Source: Meandrina meandrites
Lineage: Eukaryota; Cnidaria; Anthozoa; Scleractinia; Meandrinidae
Length of the DNA: 64,000 nucleotides
NCBI GenBank assembly: GCA_963693305.1
Contig: OY855911.1
Location: 28,042,939-28,106,938 of the forward strand
Reading direction: 5' to 3'
The notes below the pieces were generated by a model. It had not been told where the DNA came from. It did no database searches and saw nothing but the letters and a program-made list of their open reading frames with translations. Of the stretch, positions 5,642-61,100 are shown in pieces (the first letter of the stretch is position 1; each line of letters starts with the position of its first letter). A program made the position numbers and the translations under genes.

Positions 5642-5899
5642 ATAACCTCTGGATCATTTCTGATCTGTTTCTTGATGCACGTAACCTTTCATAATGGTCT
5701 TTGTGTCAGTTACTTTCTGGCAAAGTATAATCTTGTGTTCAGGTCAGAAGGTCATGAGAGACGTTAAAACTATAAGCATGATAAGGAGTCGAGAAAACGA
5801 TCCCACGAAAAATTGTCTAAACATGATCGGATATCTGGCAATTAATTATTTATTTCCGGTTTCGTAAATCATTTTTTACAACATTATTTTCATGTTGCT

Positions 5900-6548
5900 T
5901 CTGCCAGAAACATTTTTTGTGATTCATACTCCGATGAGAAACACAATAATTGCAGTTTGTTCAATTTATTTCCCTTTGAAGCATTTTCAGCCAAATGATT
6001 CGTTCATTTCCGTTTTCTGAACATCCCCATGACGGGACTGGTATAATCGAATTGCCTAAGTATTTTGTGCTTGTCGCCATGTTTGCAGAATACCGCATCT
6101 ATTTGTGACTCATACTCCGATGAGAAACAAAACAATTACGGCCGTTAAATTTAAGAGTTTTCTAAAACATCAACTACAAAGATGAGAAGAATTTTCGTAC
6201 TCGTTTCGACGCGATAATTATTTTGTGCTTGTCGCCATGGTTTCAGAATACCGCTCATGTGAGCAGTGCTTGCATTGGTTTTTGTGACTCATACTCCGAT
6301 GAGAAACAAAATAATTATGGCCGTTAGTTTTAAGATTTTTCTAAAACATCAACAACAAAGATGAGAAGAACTTTCGAAGTCGTTTCGACGCGATAATTAT
6401 TTTGTGCTTGTCGCCATGGTTGCAGAATACCGCTCATGTGAGCAGTGCTTGCATTGGTTTTTGTGACTCATACTCCGATGAGAAACAAAATAATTATGTC
6501 CGTTAGTTTTAAGATTTTTTCTAAAACATCAACAACAAAGATGAGACA
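5900..6548. repeat. ~179-bp tandem repeat, about 3.5 copies
   Basis: The phrase GACTCATACTCCGATGAGAA recurs at 5921 (one mismatch), 6107, 6286 and 6465, giving periods of 186, 179 and 179 bases. The last two full units are nearly identical and the first is more diverged. Units are non-coding in all frames. This is a small satellite-like array. Confidence 0.85.
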
Positions 6549-28100: not shown

Positions 28101-31100
28101 GAAAATTAAAGTGATTAAGTGAGTTCAAAAGTATGTCTAACTAACAGTTCTACTTTGCTGTTTTGTTCAGGATGACATCAACACCAGCATGGCCAGGGGA
28201 GTTCTGTATCTGGATGCATGTACTCACATCTCGAAGGTTTGTACGACTTTTCCAAAGTTGGTTTAGTTCAGTTTTTGTTTAACTGCGGTCAAAGAAAGAA
28301 ATAAAACAAAAACAAACAAAAAAATGCTTCACAGATAAGGTTATTTTCAGTGTTCTCTATACTTTACCAGTATGCTTCTGGTTTACTAAATTTTTGAAAC
28401 TTTACTTGAAAAAAAGTTCTATGATTTTATCTGTTTGAAGACAGGGAAATTTGTTAAAGCAATTTTCTTCGGGTGGGGAGCACTTAAAAAGTCAAGAAAC
28501 TCGTTTACTTGAGAGGAACGGCAGTGAGATAGCAGGAGCATAGTTTAAATCTGAGTCCCCGACGGGAATCGAACGCGTGATCTTCATCAGCGGTTGGATC
28601 CTCTAACTACTACGCTACAAAGAGACCCATGGGCAGCCAGGCCATTTTATTTAAAGGTTCATGAGTGATACGTTAAGCTCGGTAATTAAAATGAGAAATA
28701 TGTTACTTAAATATGCTGCCGCATATACGAGACAATGAAAAAAGGACCGAAATTTGTTAACAGGTGTACTTGGTCTTCATTGCAGGGAGTAAAAGGACGA
28801 ATGTACGGGTTTGAACTTCACATCCAAGACAAACTGTACAGCTTAATTGCGGACAGTCAGTCGGACATGGACGCCTGGATTTCCTGTCTGTGTAAAGTTA
28901 CTGGAATTGATATGGACTCCGGCAGCAAAACGTCTGGCTTCAACTTTACCGGCAAAATAAAAGCACCTAAACTGCACCAGTCTCTGAGAGAAAGTCTTAA
29001 GAGCAGTAAACATCCAGAACTTCTTGAATTCGCTAAGGAAACGGAGGTTTTGAACGCGAAACGAAGGAAGGATGGACGAAAGAAACTGTTTTCGCTCGTA
29101 CACGACCTGGACAACAACGGTACGTGCGTGAATTACGACGATGCAAGAATAGACGCTGAGGTTTTCGAACAATATTTTGGAAATCGTCTTGTTTTAGAGT
29201 GTGAGGAGCTAAAATTTCGTCTGCTCAGAACTGCGCACGATGGCAGCGAGGTGAACATCGAGCCGTTCTTTTTATCTATTTCGTTATTTGACGCTAAACT
29301 GGGAGCGAAGATTTCGGAGGATTTCCACTGCGATCTAAACGACCCGTCCACAGTGGACATGCTAAGAGGCTCAGAACTGATCGAGAATGGTCAGGCGAAC
29401 GGGAATGGTATTGATCACGTGGTGCTTGACAGAGAACTGGAATACACTTCACCAAGAAAGGTAAAACATGTACTACTAGTTTATTTCCCCAGCTCTCTTT
29501 TTTGTGAACCTTTGCGTATGAACGTTAAGGCTGGTACTCCGACCAATACTCCATTTTGACTTAGACCAGAGTGCTTGAGGGCACAGTTCTCCCCAAATAA
29601 TAGTTTAAATTATGATTGTATTATATAGTACTTATTCTTATTCAAAAATAGTACACTTGGACATTTAAGCTTAAAAAACAATTGTAGAACTTAATGATGT
29701 GTTAAGAACATCCAGTCCCGGTTCAACATCTCTGAAAGAAATCAGTGCACTGTATCTCGTGAAACAACGTTTTGCGATGTGTGGGCAATTCTGGGCGGGT
29801 AACCAGCCACTTTGTTGAGACAGATATTTCTTTTTTCCAGGCAATATTCTCTGTAACAAATCTCCACTCGGAGGTTTACCTGGTGATTAGACTAGAGAAA
29901 GTTTTACAAGGAAGCATCGGCTCGTGCGTTGAACCGTACCTCAAGTCTGGTGACACAAAAAAGGCCGCTCAAAAGGCGCACAAGCTAGCCGAGATCTGCT
30001 GCAAGAGTCTGGGACAGTACGTGATGCCGTTTGCCTGGACGGCCAGGTTAGGTTTTGAAGTCATTATATTTTTCACTGTAAAGTACGTGGTGAACTTTGG
30101 TCTGTATTAGCAGGGAAAACTTGGAGGGTAGGGGTGGGGGGACTTGCCAACTGCCAGTAATCTGACAAGATGACTATGATTTTGTGTGGCATCGATTTAA
30201 TCATTTTTTTTCTCTGTTTTCATTGCTTGGTCTGTAGAGTTATCGTGTTCGTAATTGATGTACTCATTTGGTTTTATTTTTGTAGACCGTTGCTCAACAG
30301 TGAAGGTGAGCTGGAAAGCGGCGAGATTACATCAATCTACAAACAGGTTCGTTCAAGTTTTTGTTTTAATTATGTCGCTGGGTCCTCTGGGTTTGCTGAC
30401 TGGAAGAGGGAAGTTGGTGCATGGACGATTGCGTGGCTTTAGAACATACAATCCATGGAGTGCGCATGACTGATAACCGCACGTGCCCCTTTCGTAAACG
30501 TAAACGGTCTATGCCACTTAATTGGCGATTTTTTTTTCTCTCCAGTTTCGAAAGTTTTTTCTACCAAAATAAAAAGTGCCCGTCACCACCCGGGATCGAA
30601 CCCCGAACCTATGGCATGCTAACATCTGTCTCTCACCACTAAACCACCGCGTTACTTCGTCAACCCCTCGAAAAAATAATTAAAGGTGCCTCAGTTTGCC
30701 CTATCCCTAACACTAACCTAAATGTGAAGCTAACTTAGGCCAAATTATCGTCTTATGAATATCTAGGCCTAATTTCATCTAATAATCAGAGCACAGTTTC
30801 GACCTTATCCAGGCCTTAACTAGAGCGGACATGGCATCGTCAATTCCCCAAAGCTTGGTTACCATTGATGGCATCGACCGTTAAAAAAAGGCGTCGACCG
30901 TTTACGAAAGGGAAATCAGCTTTGCTGATATCCGTTTGCCGTTTTGATTATGATCTAAGGCAGTCATACCTTTTCTAGGTATCCGTAAGAAGATTATTTA
31001 CTGTAATATTGGTTCAAAAGCCAGGTTCGTTGAAAACAGCAGCCAAAAAGACGTTTACTTGTAACCTCTTTCAGTTTCTAAACAGTTTTATTTTTCGTTT

Positions 31101-43100: not shown

Positions 43101-46100
43101 ATAATTTTTTTTTTAAACTAAGTGTAAGCATACGTTTTATACTGAATGCTCGATCAGATCTCGAACAGTATTCTTTAACACCCAGATATCATTAACTATA
43201 ACCAATTCCACGTCACTCGGTCCTTGAGTTTTAAAACTCATGATCACTCATTCCAATAATATCACCCATTCAAACTCGTGCCAAGAATATGCGTTCACGT
43301 AACCTAAAAGCTAAGCCTCATACTAGTACATCGGCTATTCGCTCTTTTTACTCTGTGAACCAATCTGTTTTCGTTTCTCATTTTGGGGGCAAGGTCATGC
43401 TGATTTAGGAATAATTCTTCTTGTTAATACTACTGGAATAATATTAGAGTCGTAGAAGATTGCTGCGCTGAACGCTTGACAATATTGAAACACTCGTATT
43501 TCAAAGTAACCTTTTTAACATCGAGATTATTACCGTCGGCTTGCTAAAGTGTTAATTTATATTAGAAGGTGCGCCAAAATGTTCAGATGCCATGTTTAGC
43601 TTAGAGATTGTCATCAAATGGATGTTTACTGTTTTTTTTTTTTTTGCTTTTGTTTTGTAGTTTTTTTTTTTCATTTGTATGTTAAATTTGTTTGTTTGTT
43701 TATTTTATAAGTTTGGAGTTTACAACTGGCAAACGGAAATACAAGAGAGTCCTCAAATAGTGTGACGTTGCCCCTTAAAATCCAGACGTTGTCATTGCGT
43801 TACTTATCCAATCCATCACTCACATAATTTTTGTTAATGCTCAGTCGTATTCGCACGTCTTATTACTCCATCTTTTGTACTGACCATTCTGCAGCACGCA
43901 CAGTGAAACCACCAAACAGTTTTTCGAGCAGAAGTACCAGGGAGGAGTATCTAGTCAGGGAAAGACACGACATTCCAGAGCGGCGAGCAGTGGAGGTAAA
44001 GAAAACTATATCAAAACCATATCAAAAACATTACAACTTCACGTCGATTTAAGTGTGTCATTCAGAAATGGTTGAAACCGCTGGCATTTTTACCTTGTGG
44101 GCTCGCTTTATTCCTTTGGGCATTCACTTCGGAAGCCACCGTTGAGCCACCGAAGTGTGTTGAATAAGTTCGGTTTTATTCGTTTGGGAAAAGGTGAGAT
44201 CTCTTGGATGAAGACCTAAAGCGACTTCAAAGGAATGGAACAATAGCGCAATTAAAGCGACTTCGAGCGCCGGAACTTGTGAGCGTATCCTTTTGTTCTT
44301 GACGTGTGAGTGAACGCCAAGGAATGTCCGCGGGCATTTCATGCATTTGAGTTTTTCGTGAAATGTTTTGAAGTTTGATTTGTATTAATGAAGGTAGAGC
44401 ATTTTGAGAGCTACAAAACGAGATCTTGAATGGGGATTTTTGGTTACTGTAAGCCGAAATTCGACTAATGCGTTATTTATTCGCGTATTGGCGGTTTCGA
44501 ACTGCAAAGGAAACTTTTAGCTTAGACATCCCAGGGGACGCGTAGGATGGATTCAGGACTGATTCATCCATGGAGAGATCATTGAATGAATTAAATTCCT
44601 TCCCAAAAATGTCGCTTTTAATATTTTTTGAAAGAAGGGCGGTTTGACAGCTTTTCAAGGAAGTTTGAATGAGGCATTTCGGTCAAGATTCGTCAAAGTC
44701 GTCTGAGGTCTAAGCCGCCATGTTGATTTAGTTACCTTCGCGCGAAGCCTTCTTGTTTGGATGTGGGATCCGTAAATAAAGAAGTGTTTTGATAAATTTA
44801 ACTTTCCTCTTAAACGAATCATGCAAGACTTGGATTTGTGATGTTATTGTGAACTCTTTGCGTTCTGAGTTCTTTAGAAAATTATCTACAGCTTGAAGAA
44901 TATTTTTGGAATTAGGCTCACCGTGTTTACATATCACGCATTCGATTCGAGATTGCATGAGATCATTCCGAGATAAGCGCGTGCTTGCTCATAAATCGTA
45001 ATAATTTGTTTGTTGCTTTTCATTGCTGTTTATTAGCCGAAACTCTTTTGCCTTTTGTCTCATTAAAGTGCCCACTTAAAGCTTAATTGTGATTTAAAAT
45101 ATCAAAACAAAAGCGTCAGCTCATTATTATTCAAATTGTCAAAACAGCAAGATATATAAAGCAGTGAATAAAGCCCGGCCAGAGTAGCGTCATTCCCAGA
45201 TCAGATCGCGTTGGTAAATTTTCAGAGTCGATCATTTACCTGTTTTAAGTCCCATCGCGATGGATTTTACTGTTGGCGAATACATCGAAGCCGTAGATCA
45301 GTTTGGAGTTTGGGCAAACGCGAAGGTTGTCGAAAAACGAGATGACTCTGTTGTTGTCACGTTTCCCCCATGGAAGTCCGAGTGGGACCGCGAAATTGTT
45401 GATGCCAGCGAAGTGAGGAGTGTAACAGAGGAAGAAGTGTTGGTTCCACGTCGTATTTCCACAACGAAGGTAAAAGATAAGTTTATCTTTTGAGATTCAA
45501 TGATTTTGGTTTGCAATCTTGTGTGATCGTTTAAACGTCACGACATGTTTTCCCGGGTGTTTTTTCTACTTCATGACTGTTATGTCTTCATTCCTAGAGT
45601 CCAAACCTAAAGAAGCTTATGGCTGGAGATATTGTCTATTTCGCTGGAGAAGATGTTACAGTGCACTGGTCTGATCCCATCCGTAAATCGGTATGTTGAA
45701 TCATTTGCTTGGTCTAACATGCCTATGTCAACATGCATATTCTCCGTACTGTTTTTCATACATTTCTTTAATTACTGTTTGGGAGAATTTGGTCAAAATT
45801 TTATTACTTTATGTTGATGACCTGGATCTTTGATCTTAGATCCTAAATGCACTGGCAGCACCAAACGAAAAAATACAGACTTTTTTAGGCTTAAACATGG
45901 AGCAAGCATACAAATATAGAGCAAACAGTAATTTGTTGGCTTGAATCAACTAGAAATTATGGTAGAAACAACTAAACTATAAACTATTGATTAAAATTGG
46001 CTAATGCTTTGTCATTTTAAGGAGTTGCACTGAATGCTATAATTATTTAGATTTCATGTGTATATTTTTATAAATTGGGCTGCTATAAGAACTATAACAA

Positions 46101-49100
46101 GCCATGTTGATGTCTCCTTGGGAAGATTAAATTACATGTGTGACAGCCATTTCAACTGGGTTTGAGCAAGTTTTATTCCCAGGCAGTTTGATTAGCAGTG
46201 CTCTCTATAAATTACAGGCAACTTGTTATCAGAATAGAAGATGGTTTAGAAAACTGAAAAGGCACTGATATAATTTGCATATCTTCTGATTATTTTTGTG
46301 ACTTTTCGAACAGGTTACTGTGAAGCTGCACAATGACACCATCAGAACTGTTAATGTTTGGGAGGTAGAGAAAACGAGGGAAGTCGAGGATGAACAGCGA
46401 CCAAGGAAAAGGAAGAGGAAGAATGCAGAAAAACAGAACATTGACGAAACTCAGCAGCCAATGCCTTCTTTGCAGCAGCCACAGCCTCAGCTACCAGTAA
46501 CAGAAAGTGACCCGGCCCACTTGGAGTTTTGTTTTTACGTTGACCCCAATGGTACCATGATTAGGATCGGCTCATTCTATACTTTAGGATTTTCTGGAAA
46601 TTCAGTTTTCATTTGCACTGCCATTTCTAGGCTGGCACATCAATTTACTTTTAAGTTTGTACTTTGTTCATTGGTCAATGATAAGGTTGACAGTTTGCTA
46701 CAAGATGTTGTATGCAGCATTGGGGATCCTAAACATATTTCATGCTGTGCCAATTTAAGTTGTACTTCTAAGGTTCGAAACCATGTGGATAAGATTATTT
46801 GTGAGGGGTGGGAAAGGGTTTTAAGTTGTCAAGGGAGAAATATTGGAAATGTTCCTTATTTGCTTGACCTCAGAAAGAGTGGTTTAGCAAGTCAAATGCG
46901 ACAAGGTGTGTGGTCTGGTATTTCACGGAGTGCCACCCGGCCTTCCCAGCCAGTTCACCTTGGCGTATTTGATCCTGTGCTTGACACTCAAATCTTTGGC
47001 CTTTCAAGTAGGGATCAGTTCCAAGTTATTTATAAAGGGAAAGATGTTGCAAAGTTAGATACTTTGCTTGGGGCACTATGGGATGTCAAGATTTTAGAGC
47101 CTGGTAATCCTCAGTCTCATTTTAAGTATGTATGCCAGGCTCGCCTGTTTGTACACAAGCCATCCATGAGCTTGCGTTTCAATTTTGCTTACTCGGAATC
47201 AAATGTTCCATTTGCAGCCACTTATAGGAGCACATGCATATATTAGTTACAATTTTTTTTGCAATAAATAGATATGTATAGATTTGAGCCTCTCTTTGGG
47301 TACTTGATAGGCATTTACTTTGTCACTCGTTTTCAGCAAGTTGTTGATTATTTTTTTTACAAAATTGTTGTCTTAATATATCAGGCATTTGTTCATCGAG
47401 TGACTGTTGTTGGTAATCTGACCACACAATTTTTGTAAATCGTTGCTTCAGTTTCAAACAGTTTCTTTTTATTTCCAATCACAGTTTTAACTTTGACTGA
47501 AATACCTTGTACTCAAAGAAAGGCTCAGAATTATAAGACAGTAAGTGTGGCTAATTTGGCTGACAACAGAAAATTATAATGCAATTCAAGATTTTTACTC
47601 ATAATATTTTGATGTGGCTGCATGGCCAGCAATAACCAGTAAGGTTTGCATTGTTCCCATTTGTTTCAAAATTTGGTGATGAAGACAACATAAATTTCTG
47701 TGTATTAGTAGTTAAGCTTTTACATTTATAAGTTAACACATTTATTTCAAGATCGATTTTGTTTACTCCAAGCCATACATGGTTGTTCATTACCTTGGAA
47801 TTTTCAAATAAATCTTTGTGCTTGAAGTGTAAAAAAGTGAGAACTTTATCAGTAACTGTTAGTAATAATGAAAGCACAATTAATAAAAGATTTAACATTT
47901 ATATTGTAAATGTTAATCAGGATGATTTTTATATCTTGTCATGTTGAATGCTTGAACATTAAAATAAACATAAGTAATATGTTTTCTCTGAACAGAGGCT
48001 GTCATTGTTAAAAAAAATGAAGTTGAAGGTGTGGCAACTTAAGTAAAATCAATAATCGATTTTACTCTTAAAAACAAAAAATAAATCCAATTATAAGCCA
48101 AACTCCCCACCCTCCCAGCTAAAGCCCCCTCTTAAAAACGCATTATAACCGGAACTTTATGGTCCCAATAACCACCACCTATTCCAAATACCACCGCAAA
48201 TTGCATATGCAGGCATGGATCCAAACCAGTTTACATTGTTTTACAGAAATCTGTCAAAATCTTGTTCAAGTGACTCAAAACAACAGGAAATAGCCCTTTA
48301 AGAAGTCAAAATCTACAAAGTATTAGTATCACCCAACTAGTGGACTAATGCAAATCCTGTATTTTGATTGGCTACGCTACTAGAGGACTACTAGTAATAT
48401 TCATTGAGTAGCGAAATTTGTGACGCTTTTTTTCGTTTTATTCCCAAATAAATCTTTCTTCAAGTTGAATTTGCTAACTTTATTATTGCTTTTTCTGTCC
48501 GACTAGTTGGGTGATACTAAAACAATAATTATTAAACCGTTCCCCCTCAAGGGCCACAGGTCAATAACCCATCCGCCTCATGGGCTATTGACCCATAGCC
48601 CTTGTGGGCTATGGGTCTAATTGTTAAATAGTCTTACAAAATACCCTATTATATTCTGGCTATTGAATCAGAAAGCAACCTTGAACTTGTTGACTTCCAG
48701 CCAGAATAAACTTAAAAGACAAGAATTCTGTTTTGTCTGTCCAAAATAAATGCCCCATTCTTGCTAATCACCCAGCCCCCCCCCCCCCCCCCCCCCCCAT
48801 CATGTGCATCTCACTGTGCATCTCACAGTTATGTGATGTCTGCACAGCTGTCCTGTCTATTGATGCTTGATAATACAAGGGGTCCTTATCTGAAATCATA
48901 ATAAAAAATTATCATTCGAAAATGTCATGTTCAGGAGACTTCAACAGTCATTTTATTTCTCTTTGCTAATGATTCTGGCATCGTCCTTTGCATGATAACA
49001 AGGATAACCCAATCAGTGACCTTTCTTTGTTCAGTTGACATCAATTCCGAGCATTGCTATGCTTCTGATCAACAAAAAGTTTTTTTCCTTGACTTTTCTT

Positions 49101-52100
49101 GCTATCAGGGCCAGTTGTAGGATTGAAGGAGAGCAGAACAAATTTGGATTTCATCTCCATTAGCTGCAGTCTAATAAGTTATAAGTGCCAGTTTTTTTTT
49201 ATTAAGACAGCCACAGAAGCAGAACAGAGAGGAATATTGCTGGAGTGAGGGGTTATGAAAAGAATAAATAAATTACTTAAATATTATCTGCAGATTGAAA
49301 TTGTATAATGTCTAAATTTAATATTATGGAAACCAAACCTCATACAGATCAACTTGCAAAGTGGGGTTTCTTATTTTATATCTTATTATTCTGTGATGCA
49401 TGATTTTGACTTTTATTTATTCATGACTTTTTATATCTTCAATATACACCTTTTTCTCACTAAATTTCGCGAGTATTAAATTTTGTAAAAAATCAAGAGC
49501 CGTATTTCATGAGTAGAAAATTTCACAATTTTGACAGGAAGGTACAACTGGAGTGTATTAAGGGACGGTTCATTATTTATGGGGATGACCGGGTCAGATA
49601 AAAAGTGACCAGGTCATGAAAAATTTTATTCCTGGAACTACGGGCTATGAGTATTTTAAAGCAAAATGACTGGGTTCTGAAAAAAAAAGAAGTCACATTT
49701 ACAGGATTTGAGAATTCAGGGCAATATCAAAACAAGGGGATGCACTGAGCAGAAAAACAAATGTGTTACAAAAAAACAGTTGAAGACTGAGAGAGGGTCA
49801 CCTATACTTTTAACGTGAAGCGTGATTGGAGTAATTTATTTTTCCGTGAAACGTGATTGAAGCTTTTTTTTTCGTGATTTGTGATTGCCAATTTCAAGAT
49901 CTTTTCACGTGCATGTGAAAGCAATTTTTAACTTAAACGTGACCCGTGAACGAAGAGTTGAATTAGACGTGATTGGTGAATCACATCTTGTTCGTGGCTG
50001 AATTATCAATTCTTTCAGTGTTCTAGTATATAAATGTACAGCTCTGTGGTTAGGTTTTGAACAGATGAAACTTTCTAAGCTATCAAGACGTGATATGCAA
50101 CACTCAAATCAAATTTTTGCGGTTTTACGCCTTTTGAGCGCTAAAGTCTAAACTGCGATCGCCTTGATTTTTGCGTGAACGTGAAAACATTTTGGTAATT
50201 ATTCGTGACGCGTGAAAAGGCTAAATATTTTTACGTGATTCAGTTTTGCAAAGGGGTATAGAGGACCCTCCTGAGAGTATGCCTGGCTCGAATTAGTACA
50301 GTCAGGAAACAAAAAAAAACTACTTGTTTCAGAGTTGGAAAAATATTTAACCAATTGCCAGAAAAATTTTAACCAATCTACACAATGTGTTCATTAAACA
50401 GCTTTCATAGTGTTACCATGTCATAATTTTGTGTCAACTTAAGTATGCTTTCCATTGACGGGGCTTTAAAAAATTTAAAATGAGTCAGGATGGGCTAAGA
50501 AATTCTGGCATGATGCTATAACAGGCATTAGGAAAAAAAAGAAAAGTTATTTTGGATTTTCCGACCCGGTCATCCCCATAAATAATGAACCATCCCTAAA
50601 TTTTATCCATTCTTCCACTTATTGTGTTGTTCCAGAAAATATCTATACCCCTCCCACAGAAGGTTTTTTGGTTTGAATCCCCCCACCCCTCTGGAAATTC
50701 TAGTTAAGCCCCATACATTCCTTTTAAAATTTTGGCTTTCAAGACCCCCCACCCCCTCAGAATTTCCATTGACCTTCCATGGGTGGGTATGGATATTCTC
50801 TGGAACTGCACATTATTTGTATTGTGGTTGACACTATAAACAAACAAAGAAATAAGCCTTTAAGAATCAACAAATGGTTTATTTATATGTCAAAGAAAAT
50901 GACCTAGAAAAATAATGCAAAAGCTCACGTGACTTATTAATTCATTTGCAAGAAGGCAAAAGTTTGTAACTCATGTGAATGTTCAGCAATTCTTGCCTCT
51001 TCCTTTGCATTCTTCCACTGGCTAGATTTTTGCTGGAATTCAGCTGTGCCAAGTTCCTTGTTAAGAATCAACAAATGGTTTATTTATAAGTCAAAGAAAA
51101 TGACCCAGTAATATAATGCAAAAGCTCACGTAACTTATTAATTCATTTGCAAGAAGGCAAAAGTTTGTAACTCATGTGAATGTTCGGCAATTCTCGCCTC
51201 TTCCTTTGCATTCTTCCACTGGCTAGATTTTTGCTGGAATTCAGCTGTGCCAAGTTCCTTGTTAAGAATCAACAAATGGTTTATTTATAAGTCAAAGAAA
51301 ATGACCTAGTAATATAATGCAAAAGCTCACGTGACTTATTAATTCATTCGCAAGAAGGCAAAAGTTTGTAACTCATGTGAATGTTCGGTAATTCTTGCCT
51401 CCTCCTGCGCATTCTTCCACTGGCTAGATTTTTCCTGGAATTCAGCTGTGCCAAGTTCCTTGTATTTAAGTTTCTCGTCATTACTGATTGACTTCCACTT
51501 CTCTGCAAGCATGATGTTAATTTCCTTTAAACTTTTGTCTGGGTTGTCTTTGGCAAATTTCGAAAACTCCTGTTTAAGAAACATGATGTATCCATTTGCT
51601 GCCCGTTTTGGCTCATGTTTGAGTGCATTCTCACAGGCTTGGTCTTCAATCTGTTGTAGTTTACGTTTTTTCCGCAGTGTTTTTTTCAAATCTCTGTGAG
51701 CACTTCGTTTACTATTTCTTAGAAGTTCACTCTGCCTTACTGGCTTAGCTTGCAGTAGGGAGCTTGCAGGAGCATTATCCAACCTTGTCAAGTTTAATTT
51801 ATACTGATCAATCTCTGGCATGTTTTTTTCTTTGTCAGCTTGTAGAACAAAGAGCTTTGAAACTATTGGCCACTTGTATCTGTAAGCATGGATGATAGGC
51901 TTGTTGATTTTTTTAAAGTCTTTCTCAAGTTCCTTTTGTGATGTAACCATGATGAAATTGGCATCCAGAACTTTTGAAAGGTCTTTGCTAAAGACCTTAC
52001 CTCCATTGCGTAAGATTACAGGGATTAGTTGGTCAGCATTGTTTATGCCAGTTTTATCTTTGTCGTTCAGTCGGCCTGATATGACAAATGTTAAACCACT

Positions 52101-55100
52101 TAGAACTTGAGGCACTGGATCTTTAAGATTGGAGATCTCCACCAATACAGGCCGTTCTTTAGCAGCCACTGCCACTTTCACTCGCTTTTTCTGTGGTGTT
52201 ATCTCACAGACCATAGCTTTAGTAGTTTCACCACCTTTTTCAATAAAAACAGTGTCACCTCTTCTGTAATTAGTTGGTGGTCTGGCCATGGGATCTTGGG
52301 AAAGATTGTCAGCTTGCACTTCGTGTTGCTGGCTTGAAACATATACTCCTGAGGGACAGTCTGTCTGCTCTGAAACAGGACTGGACTCCTCTAGTTGGTT
52401 GGTTTGCTCAGCTTGGGATGACTCTGAGGTGCAATCTGTCTGCTCTGAAACACGACTACATCCCTCAAGTTGGTTGGTTTGCTCTGCCTGGGGTGATTCT
52501 GAGGGACCGTCTGTCTGCTCTGAAACAGGACTTGATTCCTCATGGCGGTTAATTTGCACTGCTGGTTGTTCAGGAGTTGATGAATTCTCAGCGGCTGTCA
52601 TTTCAGCACTATAATCCAGCCCGACTTCTTCAAACTTTGCTTTTACATACTGGTTAAAAGCTTCTTGGACAGCAGCTGGACACTTTGCTAAACGACGCCT
52701 CAGAAACCTGTAATACCATCTGAAGAGAGTGATGACTGGGTCTTGACTCTTCCATCCACCACCTCTAGCAGAGTGCCCGAAGTACAAGCACTGGTGTAGA
52801 TAATGGGTTCTTTCACCACCTTCCGTACCACCCCGGAACAATGAATGAAAAGGTAACTCCCTAAACATCTGAGGGAATATGTCAACTCGTTTCATAAGGT
52901 ACGGGTACAACTTTGAGGAACCATATCTCAGTAGTGTCAAAGCATGATAGAGATCTACAAGTTCTGCATATCTCTGGATTTCATCCTCAGTTAGTCCAAA
53001 TCTGTAGTCTTTTGGGTCTGAAGAGCCTTGGGTTGCACCAGGCTTGAGTCTGTATGGACCGTATTTCCTTGGATCTTCATCCAGCCTTTCAAGTTCATGT
53101 AGCTCCCAATGTATTGTCCAAATCTTTGTTTCTAGATCATATTCCGAAATCTGACGAGTGGGCCACTTCAGGTGGTGCTGTAGCTTTTCTGGCAAATTGA
53201 AAAACACTTCTTTACTAGCTACATTGTGCAAAATTTCTGAATATTGATTGTCCATAAAGTGGCTGGCAGGTGCTGAAATGGTTTCAGCATGATTAACATT
53301 GAGAGTGACTTGCTCCAACTTCTTTCCATCAAAATGCAGTTCAAATGCACCATTTCTAACTCCTCGTTCATTGATGTTGGCTAGAAAATGTCCCAGTGTT
53401 TGATCCTTTGCTGCTGGCCCCATACTTGGCTGACTTTCCAAGTTCAAGCATGTCATACAGCGGTCGAAAACCATATGCTCACTTAACCGGCAAAAGCAGT
53501 GATTGCCATCTGGAATGAAGTGTGCTGTGGGAAGAGATGGGAGTAATGATTCTGGGTGCTCTCTTTCAATTTGTCTACCAAGTTCTGATCGTAGTCCTGT
53601 GTTGTATCCAACATCACTTCTGGTTTCTTTGGTTTCGTAACTGTACATGGTGAAGGCATCAGCACTTGTTGGATCTAGACCTCCCCCCAATAAACTGTCA
53701 AAGAAGTTTGAATCACCAGAAAGGAAAATCTTGTGCCCATTGTCCAACATTGTTTCAATCCATTTGTTTAAACTGTGTGATTTACCTGGATCTCCTAGGT
53801 TTTGTTCAAGATTGAGCCTGGTGTCTTTTCCATAGAAGATACTTATTGGCCAATAATCCTCAGGACTGTGATATCCAACCCCATTGAACATTGCCTCGTC
53901 ATTTAAAACATTTAATGTCAGAGCAACAGAGTCCTTCCCACCAAAATTCCTGCCATCCCCATAAATTTTCCACCATTCCTCTTTGGGTAGCCACCAATAT
54001 AGAAAGCGCAATGTCTCACACAGGCGTTGAGGGTTAATCTGCCAACCAGAATGAGTTCTCTCAGGTTTCCATATAACCTCAAACTCTTGAACAAACTTGG
54101 CTTTCATTGCATTGACTTTGCGCTCCGAGTCCAAAAATCCTGGCAATTTTCTTCTTAAGGCACGAACAATTTCAGTTGCACTTGTTGTGTCCTGAATATC
54201 TAACACATCTGAAGCAGACAGATGGTAGTGCTGTGGTGCTGACTCATTGATGATTGTCTCATAAACAGTCATTCTTTTGAGAGGGTCATGTGCTTTCTTT
54301 GCTAAGGTCAAAATATCTTGTGGGGAAAGTGATCCATCCCAGTCTTCATCATGGTTAGTCAAAACATCAGACTTTGAGTAATTAACTGAATGTGCAAGTG
54401 ATGCAAGAAAATCCTGCTTGCTTCCATGATGAACTGTTTTTGCCATTTGTGCAAGTTCTTCCTTTTGCATGTTTAACCGCCGTACCACAGTTCTTGATTT
54501 GTACCTCCGTCCTTTCTGTTGTTGTTGATCCCTTATTGTTTCCTGTCTTTGAAGAAGAGTTTCAGTAGAAACAGGTTTATGCTTGGATGGCATCTCAAAA
54601 GAACCAGAAGACAGCTGTGAATTTCTAGAAGAGTTATGTGCAGGAGTTGCTCCCTGGGAAGTAAGTGCTGAAGGAGTGGATGAGTCATCACGAATTGATG
54701 GTTGCAGTGCAGTAGATGGTGTGCCAGAATCAGCTGAACTTTGAGGAATGGCTAGCTCGACTGGTTCCAGTGCAATAGATGGCAGGCCAGACAAATTTGA
54801 ATCAGGAGGGACTGTTTGTTCCAAGGCATCCGTTTGTTGGTCACGATCAGATGAATGCAATTCAGTTGCTTGGTCATGTGCAGGTTGATCAAGTTGCTCA
54901 CATGATGTGGAGGCAACAGTCACAAGTATGTCAATTAAACAACAACGTAAATCTCTTGAGGCTGTGACTTGGTCTCCTTGTCTTGAACTTGAACATGCAA
55001 ATAGTATCAATATAGCAGCTTTGCAAGAAATATGGGTGCGAACTTTTGATCCACTTTTGAAAAGGTATTCATCTCGAACAGCCAAACCTTATAAGGGAAA

Positions 55101-58100
55101 AAAAGAAAACTGATATAAAACCTCACTAGTATTCAGATTAGGCTATGTAAACATGGAAAAAGTCCTCTATAATTGCTTTTATAAAATGAAAAACAGATAG
55201 AATGACATCGCAACCATGTTAACAAAATTGTTCTCAACTAAATGCACCGGCCAATATGATAGCACACGTACTATTTTCAATATTTTATGAAACCCCTATG
55301 TAAAAACAAGCTATTCTGATGGACATTTGTAATAAAAAATTATCTTTTCTGACTTGATGTTTCCTTATACATGTAACTTGTAAAATGTAACTCAGTCTAC
55401 ATTACACCCAGTGAGTAAATAATTATCATTATACATGTATAAACACCAATGATATACCAGGTGAGCTTTCGGACGAAAACATGATATCTTCACATGAAAA
55501 TACCACCACTGCTATGGTTACAATGTATAATGAATCGCACCTTTTGTAGCCAAAGAAAAATATGTTTGGTATTTCACTGGTGTTTATGTAATAAATAGCA
55601 TATCACATGCTGCTTGGAGGTACGAAATTTCTGTTTGTGTGTTGAAAAATATTTCACTTGTGAGTGCACTCAAAGAGAAATGTTGTATCTAATTATTGTT
55701 ATTATTGACATGCTTACACTGACAAGGTAACAGATGTATTGAATGATTTTTGTAAACTGCGAAGCACTTCAAGTTGTCCTTAGCTATAAAATTTAACTCC
55801 CAAATGATGATCATCTGTGTGACGTTTTATATAGGAATCTTCTTTCAATGTGTAATTTGTTTGAACAATTATTATTTTGACATAATGAATATATGAATGA
55901 CATGCAGATTAGTGGTTAAAAAAATTCAAGGCTACATCGAGATTTGAACCCACACACCGGTATCGCGGAGCTCATGGGTTCAAAACCAGTTGTAGCCTTG
56001 ACTTTTTTTAGGCTAAAAAATGCAATTGCTTAAAGTGCCTTCACACTGCGAGGATCATCTCATTCATTTCAGAATTATTATGACAATTTTCTTTTTGGAT
56101 TTCAATTGGGCTATGACTGGGACATTTACTCACAGACTTCTGAGTGAACATGGAAAGTCAACTGGGTTATAATTCTAAGTGATATTCCCTGATGGATAGC
56201 TAATCCTGGTTGCAGGCAAATAAACTTTCTTTAAACATTAAGAAAACTCAAGTTGTCATTTTTAAGGCTAAAAATAAGAATGTAAATGAACCTATCAAAT
56301 TAAAATTGAATGGTCAAGATATTAAACAGGTAGAATCAACCAAATTCTTAGGTATACATATAGATTCAGCCTTGACATGGAAACAACATATTAGCTATAT
56401 TACTAGAAAAATATCTAAGACTAGTGGAATCCTTTGTAAAGCCAGGCACTACGTTTCTTCTAAAACATCAAGAATGCTTTACTATACGTTAATTTACCCT
56501 TATATTCTCTACGGCAATATAATATGGGCAAATACGTATCCATCTAGACTAGACAAAATCAGAAGAATACAAAAGAAAATTATTAGATTAAAAACTTTTT
56601 CGGGTTTCTCTGACCCATCAGCTCCCTTGTTTAAAAACTTAATAATACTACCGATAGACGATATAAATAATGAGACATTAGCCATATTTATGTTTAAGTA
56701 CTTCAATAAAGGTTTACCAGAATCATTTCAAAATTTTTTTAAATTGAATAAGGATCTTCACAATTACAATACGAGGTCTGCATTTCAGGTTCACAAACAA
56801 CGTGTACGCACAAATTATAAGAAATACTCAACAGAATATAAAGGTACACAAATTTGGAACAACCTCCCAGACGATATTAAGGACTCAAATTCGCTCAACA
56901 TTTTTAAGAAAAATATAAGAAAGTACTACCTAATAAAAAATTAAAGAATACGCATCGTTAATTGATACATATTCAAGGAAGGAATATATATACACATATA
57001 TACATATTTCAATATTTTGCCTTTATGTCACAATAACTGACATAGTAATAATATTGTAAAAAATTTAAATGATTGTAACGGGGGCCTCTCCAAGAAAAAC
57101 CCAGAAGGGTTTGCTGAGAGCCCCTGCTCTTAAATTTATTCAGAAAAATATTGTTATTGTTATTGTCAGGAGCAAATAAATAAATAAATAAATAAAAATA
57201 ATAAATAATTATTTCTCCCTGGAACTATGCCTATGAGGAACAAGTTTCACCAACAAACCTCTCGAAGTAACTGTATATGGAGGTGGCTGGTTTCTAATCC
57301 CAAAAGGGAAAAACAGAATAATTTGAGGAGACAAGTCCCAGGAACAACATTCCCAACCTCAAATTAATTGTTAGAAAGACTATAGATTTATTATATAAAG
57401 ACTGCTACCCATTCTCAAATCCTTCTTCAATGTGTCATTTACTTATTAAGATCAGGGGTAAGCTTTGATCACAATGTTCATTGTTATGATAAAAAATCAG
57501 TCGAGTATGCACATCCCGGTAACATAGATTTTAAGTCACTGTTTACACTTGTAAAACTGATCAAAAACCTGACTTACCGTGTCCTTCTACTAGAACATCA
57601 AGATCTTTGTATCCTCTTTGCTTTATGTGGGCTTTAACTCCGAGCGAAAGAAGAAGGGATTCGTCGATTTCGAAGAAAGCTTTTGTATCGCGTAGCAGTG
57701 TTGGCTTGAAGTTGTCAGGCCACGATACTCGGTCTAGTGAGTCACTTTGCATTATCAGACATCTGCTGATCGTTCTTCAGCATGTTTATGGACGTTTATG
57801 ACGGCGATTTGTCATTTTCCACGGTTAAAACATCAAGTAATGTTTTGATCTTCGCGCGGTCGCGGGAAAGGTTTTCCACTGTTTTCAGTTTGTGACGAAT
57901 GACGCGCGATACGCTATTGGTCAGTTCCGTGTGGTTGACATGACAACCTTGCACGTTACTCCAGCTTTGTCACGAAAGGCAAAAGCGGATACGGCATACT
58001 TCGAACCGGACAGAACAGGGACAAGAGGAGTTACATTTGACGCGTGCGGCTTTTGAAATGTCTTAAATGTTATCCGTCACTTAAAAGAGAAAGATCAGAG

Positions 58101-61100
58101 GTCTTGACGAGATGAGTTTCGCCAATTCAAGATCTTTGATTCGAGATTTTCGATATATTATGCAAACAATTTTAAGCGCGGACCGGCGCGGGGTTTCGTC
58201 TTGAAACACAAGGGGAAAATTAACTGATGTAAAATATCAAGAAGGCCATTACCAGAGAAAAAAAAAGACAACCCAAGTTTCGAGATAGACAATTTGTCAT
58301 TGTTTATTTATCTTGCATTGAGTGTGTGTCAAAAGATACTTGAGCTAGCGAGCGGGGTTGTGAATGTTCTTTCAAATGAACATCGGTCGGTCCAAGCTTC
58401 ATTCCTTTGAGATGACAGTTATCATTTTACAGAAATGCGAGTTACATAAACTCAGTCAAGCAGCCACTTCCTCTGTGGTCCCAGAGGTTTCAGCACCTTC
58501 CATTTAAACAAAAGAAATATATCTCACCTACATCAAAGGGTTTGCGCTCTTCGGAAACGACCCGCATCTTCGGCAAGTAATAGTTATAAATGATTAATGA
58601 GTAAGAACAATAGCTTGAATATATGAATACTTAACGACCTCGATTTTCGAGGTTCACACTTAAATCGACGTGAAGTTGTAATGTATATCAAAAATATATC
58701 AAAACCATATCAAAAATATATCAAAACCATATCAAAAACATATCAAGACCATAACAAGACCGTATCAAGAACATATCAACACTATATCAAAACTGTATCA
58801 AAACCATGTCAAAATTTATCAAAACCATATCAAAAACATATCAAGACCATATCAAGACCATAATAAAAACATATCAAAACCATACCAAAAATATATCAAA
58901 ACCATATCAAAACCATACCAAAAAATATATCAAAACCATATCAAAAACATATCAAAAAATATATCAAAACCATATCAAAAACATATCAAAAAATATATCA
59001 AAACCATATCAAAAACATATCAAAAAAAATATCAAAACCATATCAAAAAAAATATCAAAATCATATCCAAAAATATATCAAAACATATCAAAAAATATAT
59101 CAAAACCATATCAAGACCATGCCAAAAACATATCATAACCATATCAAAACCATATCAAAACCATATCAAAAATATATCAAAAAAAAATATCAGCGCCATA
59201 TCAAAACCATATTAAAACCACATCAAAACCAAATCAAAACCATTACAAAAATATATCTAAAACATCAAAAAATATATAAAAACCATATAAAAAATACATC
59301 AAAATTATTTCAAATATATATATTAAAACCATATCAAGGCCATATCAAAAATATCAAAACCCTTACAAAATATATCAAAACCATATCAAAACCGTATCAA
59401 AACCATATAAAAAATATATTAAAACCATATCAAAACCATATTAAGACCACATCAAAACCATATCAAACCTTATCAAAACCATATCAAAACTATATGAAAA
59501 CCATATAAAGAATCGTTTAACTATAGTTACTGTAGTTACACGAAGTTTGTGAGAAATGTGGAGGAATTCTTCTACGTAGGAGGGGAGATATAATGTTATG
59601 CGGTACTATCGTGCTACCCCTTGGCTCTCCTCTGTGCGGTCCTCATCCACTTGCTTAGATGTTAGCTAATTGAGTTTTCAGGTACCTTGGCAACCTTGAA
59701 AATTGTCCTTCTTTAAACACTGAAAGCCTTCCTTAAAAACACGAGAAAATTAAGTTCAGGTCCAGGTAACTTTAATTTTGGGGACCATTTTGGCCTCACC
59801 TCTTCTATTCCAAGTTTGTTATTGATTTCTCATTGACTTCTGAAAGTCGTGATGTCACAAGGGATGTGTTATTAAATAAACAGGTTGGCGTATGCCAGTT
59901 CGTTCTGTGAAGTTGACTTACTTACATGTCTCTCTCTCTCTAATGAAGGAATAAATCTGGACGTTCAAACTCGTGTCTTGATGGAAGGAAATCTCGCAAA
60001 CGAAGTCGGTCTTGTTGTGTTAGACACCATTGAGCTATTCTGTGGTCATTTTAAGGTGAGCACATTATATTGGGATGCTTAATCAGCCTCCTCATTTCTA
60101 CTCTTAATAATGAGCAGTTTGTCAAAAAAAGCTAGTGGTTTGTGTATTAGTAGCTGGTGTTGTTACTTCATGTAATTGAATCATCGTTGCCATCAGGATG
60201 ATGGAACCTTTTTAAGGAAATCTGCGGTACATTTGAAAATGTAAGGTTCCTGTATTCATATTTTGCCCGTAAAATGTCCATTTTCTCTACTTGTTGGCAT
60301 CTTGACTTCCCACTGCGTCCGTTTAAGTGATTTATAGATTATACTGTTCTACGGAATCGCATCTTTTTTTTCCCATTACTATATTTTACATTTCTCAAAA
60401 TGTGCTCGCTTAAGGTGTTTCTTGTTTGTGATTTTCTTTTTATTATTATTTATCCTCAAGTTTCATCTGGAGCAAGACGAAGGTGACAATCTTCTGATGA
60501 AGAAGGTACGTAGAGCAACAGAGTGACTCGACACTGCAATTAATTTCTTTAAAGTCAAAAAGGCTTGAGGACTTAAATCTGTTGGACCCTTTTAACTACT
60601 ATTTTTAAAATATTAACTCTGGTAACGTAATGAAACCTATTTGATTTAGTTCTGGTTTTTTGTTACCACCCGAGCACTAAGTTCTTTTTTGTTGCACATC
60701 TTCTTATGGATATCTCTGTAATACGGACACCTCCCTATAACGGCCATTTTTCTCTGACCATTTGATGTCCGTATTTAAGAGGTACCACTATTGACTGAGC
60801 CACTAGTCTGAGTCGAGGTTTTGCGCTCTCAAATCCGAGATTCAGAGAATCGAGCAGAAAAATTCCACATGTATGGTACTGATGAGGTTGGTTATCACGT
60901 GTTCGCGAAAGTAAGACGTCGTCTAACTTTCTAGTTGTAGTCGTTGGTAGCCGCAGATGGTTCAGTTCTTTGTCAGTTTGTTTGGCTCTAGCTGCAGATT
61001 CTGATTTTGCTTGTCTTTTTTTCCCTCTCCAACAGGTGTTCAACGTACTGTTAAGCTTCTTACAGATCCCTCAGTCGGAATTCATGATGAAACACGTGTT

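Follow-up and report, generated by a model that had tools for sequence, protein, structure and literature searches.

The window analysed here, 64,000 nt from the coral Meandrina meandrites, carries two convergent genes between inverted repeats, and the question that the locus raises is whether this segment is a mobile element and, if so, whether it belongs to any known group of DNA transposons. A preliminary description had called it a mobile element of unrecognised type within a DOCK intron, with mobility as an inference. In our reading, to which we give a probability of roughly 0.9, it is a DNA transposon of the autonomous, cut-and-paste type whose lineage our searches do not assign, with gene 2 as its transposase and gene 1 as a partner gene.

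Boundaries and insertion site

A perfect inverted repeat is read at 44028-44057 and 58655-58684. Since the outermost base differs among the other copies, the true terminus is 29 bp long and the element spans 44029..58683 (14,655 bp, no strand assigned); of the 30-bp repeats described before, the perfect match stands, but their outermost nucleotide at either end is flanking DNA. The terminal sequence is CATTACAACTTCACGTCGATTTAAGTGTG, present as the left terminal inverted repeat (TIR) at 44029..44057 (plus strand), a left end of the family-A type, and as the right TIR at 58655..58683 (minus strand), which ends in GTAATG versus GTCATG in family-A copies. The element has CA..TG termini.

Both flanks carry a host minisatellite with an 11-bp unit, the ATATCAAAACC array. 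When the flanks were joined assuming a duplication of 0 or 11 bp, the minisatellite phase was matched at 54 of 54 positions, as against 42-46 of 54 for the remaining 14 of the 16 duplication lengths tried (0-15), so that the array does run on at either side as had been proposed. Support for a DOCK host gene is partial: one ORF upstream of the element (28711-29556) matches the PH domain of DOCK9 (E 2.3e-5) and DOCK6 (E 0.0016), with a Pfam PH match below the Pfam cut-off, but the sole match of a second upstream ORF is an unrelated chain and two downstream ORFs gave no match. From the sequence, the element looks as if it sits within an intron of a coral gene.

Copies in the host genome and mosaic structure

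The TIR pattern was found 123 times (67 + 56) in the 551-Mb host genome and not once when read backwards, so these matches are not due to chance and the terminus recurs well outside the window. Individual places were taken from the first 100 of the 123 matches, which makes the pairs read a lower bound, and 40 of 89 and 40 of 135 candidates were scored. At least 30 copies have both ends read, with TIRs, sharp boundaries and unrelated flanks; their intact ends are partly a matter of construction, as the copies were located through their termini. Left out of the 30 are c1a and c2, which have only a left end and no right end within 20 kb, and C1:40986014 with a degenerate right end. An additional pair outside the 30 lies at C7:12539992-12541679. 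Deletion derivatives exist among the copies. Over 13.7 kb, copies c10a and c10b are separated by only 24 mismatches plus 39 gap positions and are for this reason regarded as young.

The gene pair is likewise not confined to the apparent DOCK intron but present at 12 loci of the host genome: in 12 of 12 gene-2 loci matched over at least 450 aa a convergent gene 1 lies within 10 kb. Compared with family A, gene 1 of the window copy is about 97% identical and gene 2 only about 64%. Identity to family-A copies falls from about 89-93% to about 75% in a junction zone between the genes at 49223..49304 (no strand assigned), and by this comparison the window copy is a mosaic, put together from two families.

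Target duplications and empty sites

For 14 of the 30 copies we searched for an empty site, scoring 40 of 83 and 40 of 1715 candidates. Paralogous empty sites were found for six of these insertions, whereas none was found for the other eight. The six sites show duplications of 1, 2, 2, 1, 1 and 2 bp (A, AA, TA, G, A and TT); bases were gained and none lost, and neither terminus is truncated. With six insertions matched by an empty paralogous site, the family has been shown to be mobile. The window copy itself carries no 1- or 2-bp duplication.

Among all 30 copies, 24 share 1-3 bp between both junctions, compared to 10.7 in shuffled pairs, and six have no junction duplication. Exact flank identity, tested for lengths 1-12, was seen in 19/30 copies for 1 bp, 11/30 for 2 bp and 1/30 for 3 bp, and in none of the 30 for 4-12 bp, including 5 bp; a target duplication of fixed length was therefore rejected. 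With one mismatch allowed, 4-bp matches occur in 8/30 copies versus 2.1 in shuffled pairs, an excess that is unaccounted for; with no exact case among them, and with 1-2 bp as the length seen at empty sites, we do not take these near-matches as duplications of 4 bp. Seven copies and the phase of the minisatellite had pointed to a duplication of zero length, a reading that the empty sites contradict, although it may hold for the window copy. By eye, no common target motif was found in the 30 sites.

Gene 2, a probable DDE transposase gene

Gene 2 lies on the minus strand; the part of it read as an open frame comprises 1249 aa plus TAA at 51339..55088. Homologues align over a conserved core, residues 180-840 (52569..54551, minus strand). 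In an alignment of the window copy with 36 of the 51 homologues found, five residues are invariant in 37/37 sequences, all encoded on the minus strand: D378 (53955..53957) and D459 (53712..53714), the putative first and second catalytic Asp, H530, and E756 and E759 (52812..52823), one of which is the putative catalytic Glu. H530 closes a C/DxxH motif (D527..H530, 53499..53510) between the second D and the E, with C at position 527 in 31 of the 37 sequences and D in the other six, as in the hAT/P/MuDR/Kolobok/Dada group. Spacing is 72-82 residues between the two Asp and 67-70 from the second to the C/D position; three further homologues (P0007, P0014 and P0021) stop short of or lack the E region. 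Order and spacing of these motifs suggest an RNase H fold, and gene 2 probably encodes a DDE transposase with C/DxxH.

The C-terminal part carries an HMG box at 51444..51611 (minus strand; PF00505, E 9e-11), in agreement with the earlier label. The BRCT label is supported through homologues, as 13 of 25 members match PF16589 at E≤1 (best 8e-8), but the window protein itself has no BRCT match in Pfam; alignment places a BRCT-like region with approximate limits at 51801..52112 on the minus strand. For the core, no transposase family was detected in Pfam (with 25 members searched at E≤1 and 15 at E≤5), no transposase profile in NCBIfam and no transposase among the PDB matches listed (best 60 of 64, best 60 of 125 and all 29 matches). 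Against these sequence searches the type is indeed unrecognised; the "novel core" claimed earlier has no assignable family, but with DDE and C/DxxH apparent we regard it as unassigned rather than beyond the chemistry of known enzymes. PDB matches of the core profile to TAL effectors were dismissed as an artefact of many weak repeats summed up, each domain listed scoring below 3 bits, and Pfam matches to Penicillinase repressor and the diphtheria C-domain (E >0.1) as chance. Synonymous change in gene 2 relative to family A is saturated, yet the protein is little changed (dN 0.235 overall, 0.124 in the core). One family-A gene 2, at C1:44399118, carries an internal TGA.

Gene 1, the convergent partner

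Gene 1 is modelled with three exons on the plus strand, encoding 411 aa: exon 1 at 45260..45469 (95.7-98.6% aa identity in five other copies), exon 2 at 45598..45690, supported by comparison with other copies, and exon 3 with the stop codon at 46314..47246, which carries a conserved C-terminal domain without assigned fold. Together with the gene-2 frame this bears out the convergent gene pair. The former "Tudor-like" label finds no support in Pfam, where only MSL3 chromo-like matches appear (E 0.02 and 0.16); Kelch and PHD domains are absent in the same search, and against the PDB only caspase-1 was matched (E 0.4-0.5). Family-A gene 1 has a dN/dS of 0.83, from just 12 changes, and a family-C gene 1 at C9:24161605 is interrupted by TAA. 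Gene 1 most likely encodes an accessory protein, such as a targeting or assembly factor.

Proposed mechanism

We infer a cut-and-paste route in which the gene-2 transposase would bind the 29-bp TIRs and excise the element by means of an RNase H-like DDE site formed by D378, D459 and E756 or E759. The ends would be joined to target DNA cut with a stagger of 1-2 nt, leaving duplications of 1-2 bp. To allow synapsis, the HMG box probably bends the DNA; the BRCT region probably makes contact with repair or chromatin proteins of the host, and gene 1 would partner gene 2 as RAG2-like proteins partner RAG1-like transposases. A copy-and-paste DDE route may also be considered for the element.

Comparison with known transposons and alternative explanations

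In the RAG system HMGB1 is a separate cofactor, whereas here an HMG box is built into the putative transposase. RAG1 is not among the PDB matches listed for the gene-2 core, and of the C(2)C and H(3-4)H signatures of CMC/Transib neither a Cys pair nor HxxxH is found among the invariant or nearly invariant columns from the second D to the E. RAG-like transposons (ProtoRAG/RAGL, relatives of Transib) resemble the element in having a convergent DDE transposase and partner gene between TIRs, but RAGL is described in the cited account with 5-bp target duplications and RSS-like TIRs (PMC7204232), as opposed to 1-2 bp at our six empty sites. The PHIS group (PIF/Harbinger, ISL2EU, Spy, Pangu, Nuwa) is portrayed as having very short or no target duplications, with a second gene in some of its groups, both like the element (PMC4482050, PMC10045372). 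The 1-2 bp observed fall within the PHIS range of 0-4 bp; however, PHIS members have a Harbinger/IS5-type transposase and a target fixed for each group, whereas gene 2 has no such profile match and the duplicated bases vary. Moreover, the C/DxxH carried by the element is ascribed, in the accounts cited here, to five superfamilies that do not include PHIS. Although Pfam includes a KDZ (Kyakuja-Dileera-Zisupton) model, gene 2 has no match to it. Two Kyakuja families are reported with CA..TG termini like those of the element, but these lack TIRs, and KDZ duplications are given as 7-8 bp in that report (PMC12730594).

One alternative is that the element descends from a known C/DxxH superfamily (hAT, P, MuDR, Kolobok or Dada) but has diverged beyond recognisable similarity and shortened its target duplication; we consider this possible but doubtful. 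The accessory gene and C-terminal domains of these superfamilies are unlike those of the element, and to our knowledge none of them combines an HMG/BRCT tail with such a gene 1. No Pfam transposase profile of the group matches gene 2, and the duplications described for hAT, Kolobok, P and MuDR are 4-10 bp in the account cited (PMC3706591), in contrast to 1-2 bp. Because the group is described with these longer duplications, we appear to be dealing with a new lineage at the superfamily level; a new superfamily, set apart by Pfam, NCBIfam and PDB sequence searches and by described duplication lengths, is likely, though not proven. That the lineage is already held in Repbase or Dfam under some name, and is new only relative to Pfam, NCBIfam and PDB, seems unlikely to us. 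Coral and echinoderm genomes are often mined for repeats, which speaks for this, but searches of the open-licence literature, judged by titles and abstracts, brought up no matching element, and the relatives have generic database names or none.

Far less probable is insertion by another recombinase or, for a linear molecule after excision, through end joining; gene 2 would then not be the integrase and the variable 1-2 bp would be microhomology of the end joining. The variable duplication length, unusual for a DDE enzyme, and the excess of 1-3 bp junction identity would fit this explanation; the gain of bases next to complete termini, the invariant acidic triad with C/DxxH and the lack of any tyrosine (Crypton-type) or serine recombinase profile in either gene at E≤1 argue against it. 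A DDE transposon accounts for the TIRs at sharp boundaries, the target duplications at empty sites and the invariant D, D and E. A host locus or segmental duplication has next to no probability left: the position in the apparent intron of a normal gene and the spliced genes under selection would suit it, but it is refuted by the empty sites of the element's relatives, together with the 123 TIR matches and the unrelated flanks.

Significance and distribution

Known eukaryotic DNA transposons are placed in about two dozen superfamilies, with a count of 24 given for Repbase (PMC12730594), and the length of the target duplication serves as a superfamily signature (PMC3706591). A C/DxxH transposase duplicating 1 or 2 bp depending on the site would break this pattern and raise the structural question of how its two active sites meet the target DNA. 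The convergent layout of enzyme and partner parallels RAG-like transposons without detectable relation, and so offers a second, independent test case for the question why transposases retain such a partner. On balance we lean towards a superfamily of DNA transposons of animals that has not been described before and has members in corals, hemichordates and sea cucumbers at least: a C/DxxH DDE transposase with a near-blunt, variable stagger of 1-2 nt, not described for the C/DxxH group in the accounts cited, with a built-in HMG bender and BRCT module, a convergent partner gene in every near-complete copy, and halves (left end with gene 1, right end with gene 2) that were swapped between families.

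Relatives were found in coral, hemichordate and sea cucumber, among them relatives in Glandiceps and Holothuria. A prokaryotic or viral origin was rejected, as pattern scans of genome contigs and of viral contigs revealed no relative. The CMITEs of corals, described with TIRs of 13-14 bp and tied to piggyBac-like elements (PMC2872659), differ from the window element. Most relatives have no database name and the few others are called "unnamed", "hypothetical", "uncharacterized" or "BRCT domain-containing"; some marine-animal proteins listed as "hypothetical" or "BRCT domain-containing" are probably transposases of this lineage.

Element ends and genomic copies

The preliminary description gave the element perfect 30-bp inverted repeats. 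A perfect repeat of that length is indeed present, but the outermost base varies among aligned genomic copies; the true terminus therefore measures 29 bp (CATTAC...TGTG), and the window element extends over 44029-58683 (14,655 bp). The proposed DOCK host gene is partly confirmed: one upstream ORF matches the DOCK9 PH domain, a second matched an unrelated chain and two downstream ORFs gave no match.

The 551-Mb assembly containing the window (56 contigs) was screened with the pattern of the terminal inverted repeat (TIR), allowing one mismatch, which yielded 67 forward and 56 reverse matches genome-wide; the same pattern read backwards, used as a control, yielded 0. With the terminal 300 bp as queries, the best 40 of 89 candidates were scored for the left end and the best 40 of 135 for the right end. 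Both ends were examined in 30 copies, the smallest about 1.0 kb and the largest 14.7 kb long. Besides the window copy, six copies were read over their whole length (13.6, 13.7, 13.7, 12.8, 5.4 and 1.1 kb), the last two of which retain both ends and lack the middle, like deletion derivatives. Over 13.7 kb the copies c10a and c10b show just 24 mismatches plus 39 gap positions, which dates the movement as recent. Left ends 95-97% identical to that of the window over the first 480-545 bp were also noted at G000:C1:3236893 and G000:C2:32439605, with the right end absent within 20 kb (L025-L026, L033-L034); these copies are one-ended or heavily rearranged.

Target-site duplication

For 14 of the 30 insertions, the two flanks were joined and used as a query against the genome. 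Empty paralogues were found for six sites, all in repeated DNA, and were not found for the other eight. In total 17 empty copies were compared across the six sites. The duplication is 1 bp at the sites of c10a (A, 5/5 empty copies) and G000:C11:5719161 (A, 3/3), and 2 bp at those of c4 (AA, 1/1), c1b (TA, 2/2) and C7:39492315 (TT, 2/2). At the c10c site it is 1 bp (G) in three of four empty copies, the fourth giving 2 bp with a poor left match (17/25). The family inserts as TIR-bounded units with a duplication of 1-2 bp, and the mobility of the family, at first an inference, is borne out by the empty paralogous sites at six insertions.

The C11 and C7 insertions are derivatives of family C, one of the groups of relatives distinguished by identity to the window copy; the former lies within a repeat having at least 39 near-identical copies and the latter adjoins tandem copies of its own flank, so that both serve as natural empty-site controls. 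Junction identity of 1-3 bp was seen in 24 of the 30 copies, compared with 10.7 in shuffled pairings and with a mean of 11.4 (maximum 16) when the test was shifted into the flanks; it is absent in six copies, including the window copy, where a simple computation of minisatellite phase fits at 54/54 positions with 0 (or 11) bp duplicated. A 4-bp flank match with exactly one mismatch occurs in 8/30 paired copies versus 2.1 after shuffling; this is not taken for a 4-bp duplication, as no copy has an exact match of that length and the empty sites give 1-2 bp.

The gene pair and its families

As initially described, the two genes converge: gene 1, the partner, lies on the plus strand (exons 45260-45469, 45598-45690 and 46314-47246; 411 aa), and gene 2, the probable transposase gene, on the minus strand (open frame 51339-55088). 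The Tudor resemblance proposed for gene 1 received no profile support in Pfam. Gene-2 matches of at least 450 aa were found at 12 loci genome-wide, and a convergent gene 1 is located within 10 kb at all 12, which indicates that the gene pair travels together. Some loci carry gene 1 without a detected gene 2, and gene-2 fragments are present elsewhere. Identity to the window copy in gene 1 and in the gene-2 core (residues 180-840) is 97% and 79-80% in family A (4 loci), 54-55% and 69-71% in family C (6 loci), and 38% and 50% at a distant locus. The frames are mostly open, the exceptions being a TGA in one family-A gene 2 and a TAA in one family-C gene 1. Within family A, dN/dS (like the values below, a simple computation) is 0.83 for gene 1 (12 changes) and 0.21 for gene 2 (28 changes).

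From its left end to about 49223 the window copy shows about 95% DNA identity to family A (local blocks 89-97%); past this point most of the alignable sequence is 69-78% identical, short pieces reaching 87%. In comparison with family A, gene 1 has a dS of 0.06-0.08 and a dN of 0.010-0.014, while in gene 2 synonymous change is saturated and dN is 0.235; saturated synonymous sites with few amino-acid changes indicate that gene 2 was kept functional over that time. In a simple FastTree tree, window gene 2 is sister to the homologue P0007 (support 0.762) and stands, more tentatively, beside P0002, P0003 and P0012, not family A. Genome-wide, neither a second full-length gene 2 of the window type nor a gene 1 of 55%-97% identity to the window over its length was found. 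Right ends 87-98% like that of the window exist elsewhere, the paired ones on copies of 1.0-4.5 kb. The window copy is a mosaic, most simply explained if two families exchanged sequence at the gap between the genes.

Gene 2 as a probable DDE transposase

Judged by its conserved residues, gene 2 probably encodes a DDE transposase. Among 37 aligned sequences (window plus 36 of 51 homologues), D378, D459, H530, E756 and E759 are invariant, and C or D occupies position 527, giving a C/DxxH motif with H530. The spacing is 72-82 residues between the two aspartates and 67-70 from the second to the C/D position. Three further homologues outside this alignment are without the E region. The HMG box is a clear match (E 9e-11). 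No transposase profile match was obtained in Pfam (25 and 15 family members) or NCBIfam (3 proteins), and no transposase is among the matches listed in PDB sequence searches (60 of 64, 60 of 125 and all 29).

Relatives of gene 2 occur in the coral Porites lobata, the hemichordate Glandiceps talaboti and, with 7 entries, the sea cucumber Holothuria leucospilota, the remainder being mostly nameless in databases; pattern scans found no bacterial, archaeal or viral relatives. Two protein relatives carrying the names Porites and Pocillopora make a stony coral the probable host. Many relatives have the BRCT tail, and a few show ubiquitin or weak ubiquitin-protease matches, in extra N-terminal regions recognised by Pfam in P0023 and P0066 and by eye in P0024 and P0025. 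Distant relatives may thus often have captured domains upstream of the transposase core.

In transposition, the gene 2 protein would recognise the TIRs, cleave, and transfer strands to a target cut 1-2 nt apart. Its HMG box probably serves synapsis by bending DNA, its BRCT region probably makes contact with repair or chromatin proteins, and gene 1 most likely helps in targeting or assembly.

Comparison with known transposons

RAG-like transposons carry between their TIRs a gene for a DDE enzyme and, convergent with it, one for a chromatin-reading partner (PMC7204232). The layout of the window element resembles this, but no sequence relation to them was found and the duplication length differs. 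The C/DxxH motif is described for hAT, P, MuDR, Kolobok and Dada, and the duplications stated for hAT, Kolobok, P and MuDR are 4-10 bp (PMC3706591). Shorter ones are given for other groups: PHIS duplicates 0-4 bp, Tc1/mariner relatives 2 bp (TA) and CMC 2-4 bp (PMC4482050, PMC10045372); the transposase profiles of these three groups had no match here. Searches of an open-licence library listed no comparable element, judged by titles and abstracts. The early view of an unrecognised type holds against Pfam and NCBIfam profiles and PDB sequences, relative to which the element likely represents a new superfamily.

Possible nested features

Between the two genes, at 49557-50601, lie 45-nt inverted arms that are 91% complementary and about 1 kb apart, probably a nested non-autonomous transposon. 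Near these arms, element positions 5764-6242 have 82-88% matches far beyond the left end of the copy c2. An open frame of 246 aa upstream of gene 2 (56204-56944) had no Pfam match; it reads like the final part of a LINE reverse-transcriptase protein, and is possibly a nested retrotransposon fragment. Three tandem 201-bp units, 95-97% alike, are located at 50860-51463, and tblastn reveals two further copies of the final 40 gene-2 codons downstream of the stop.
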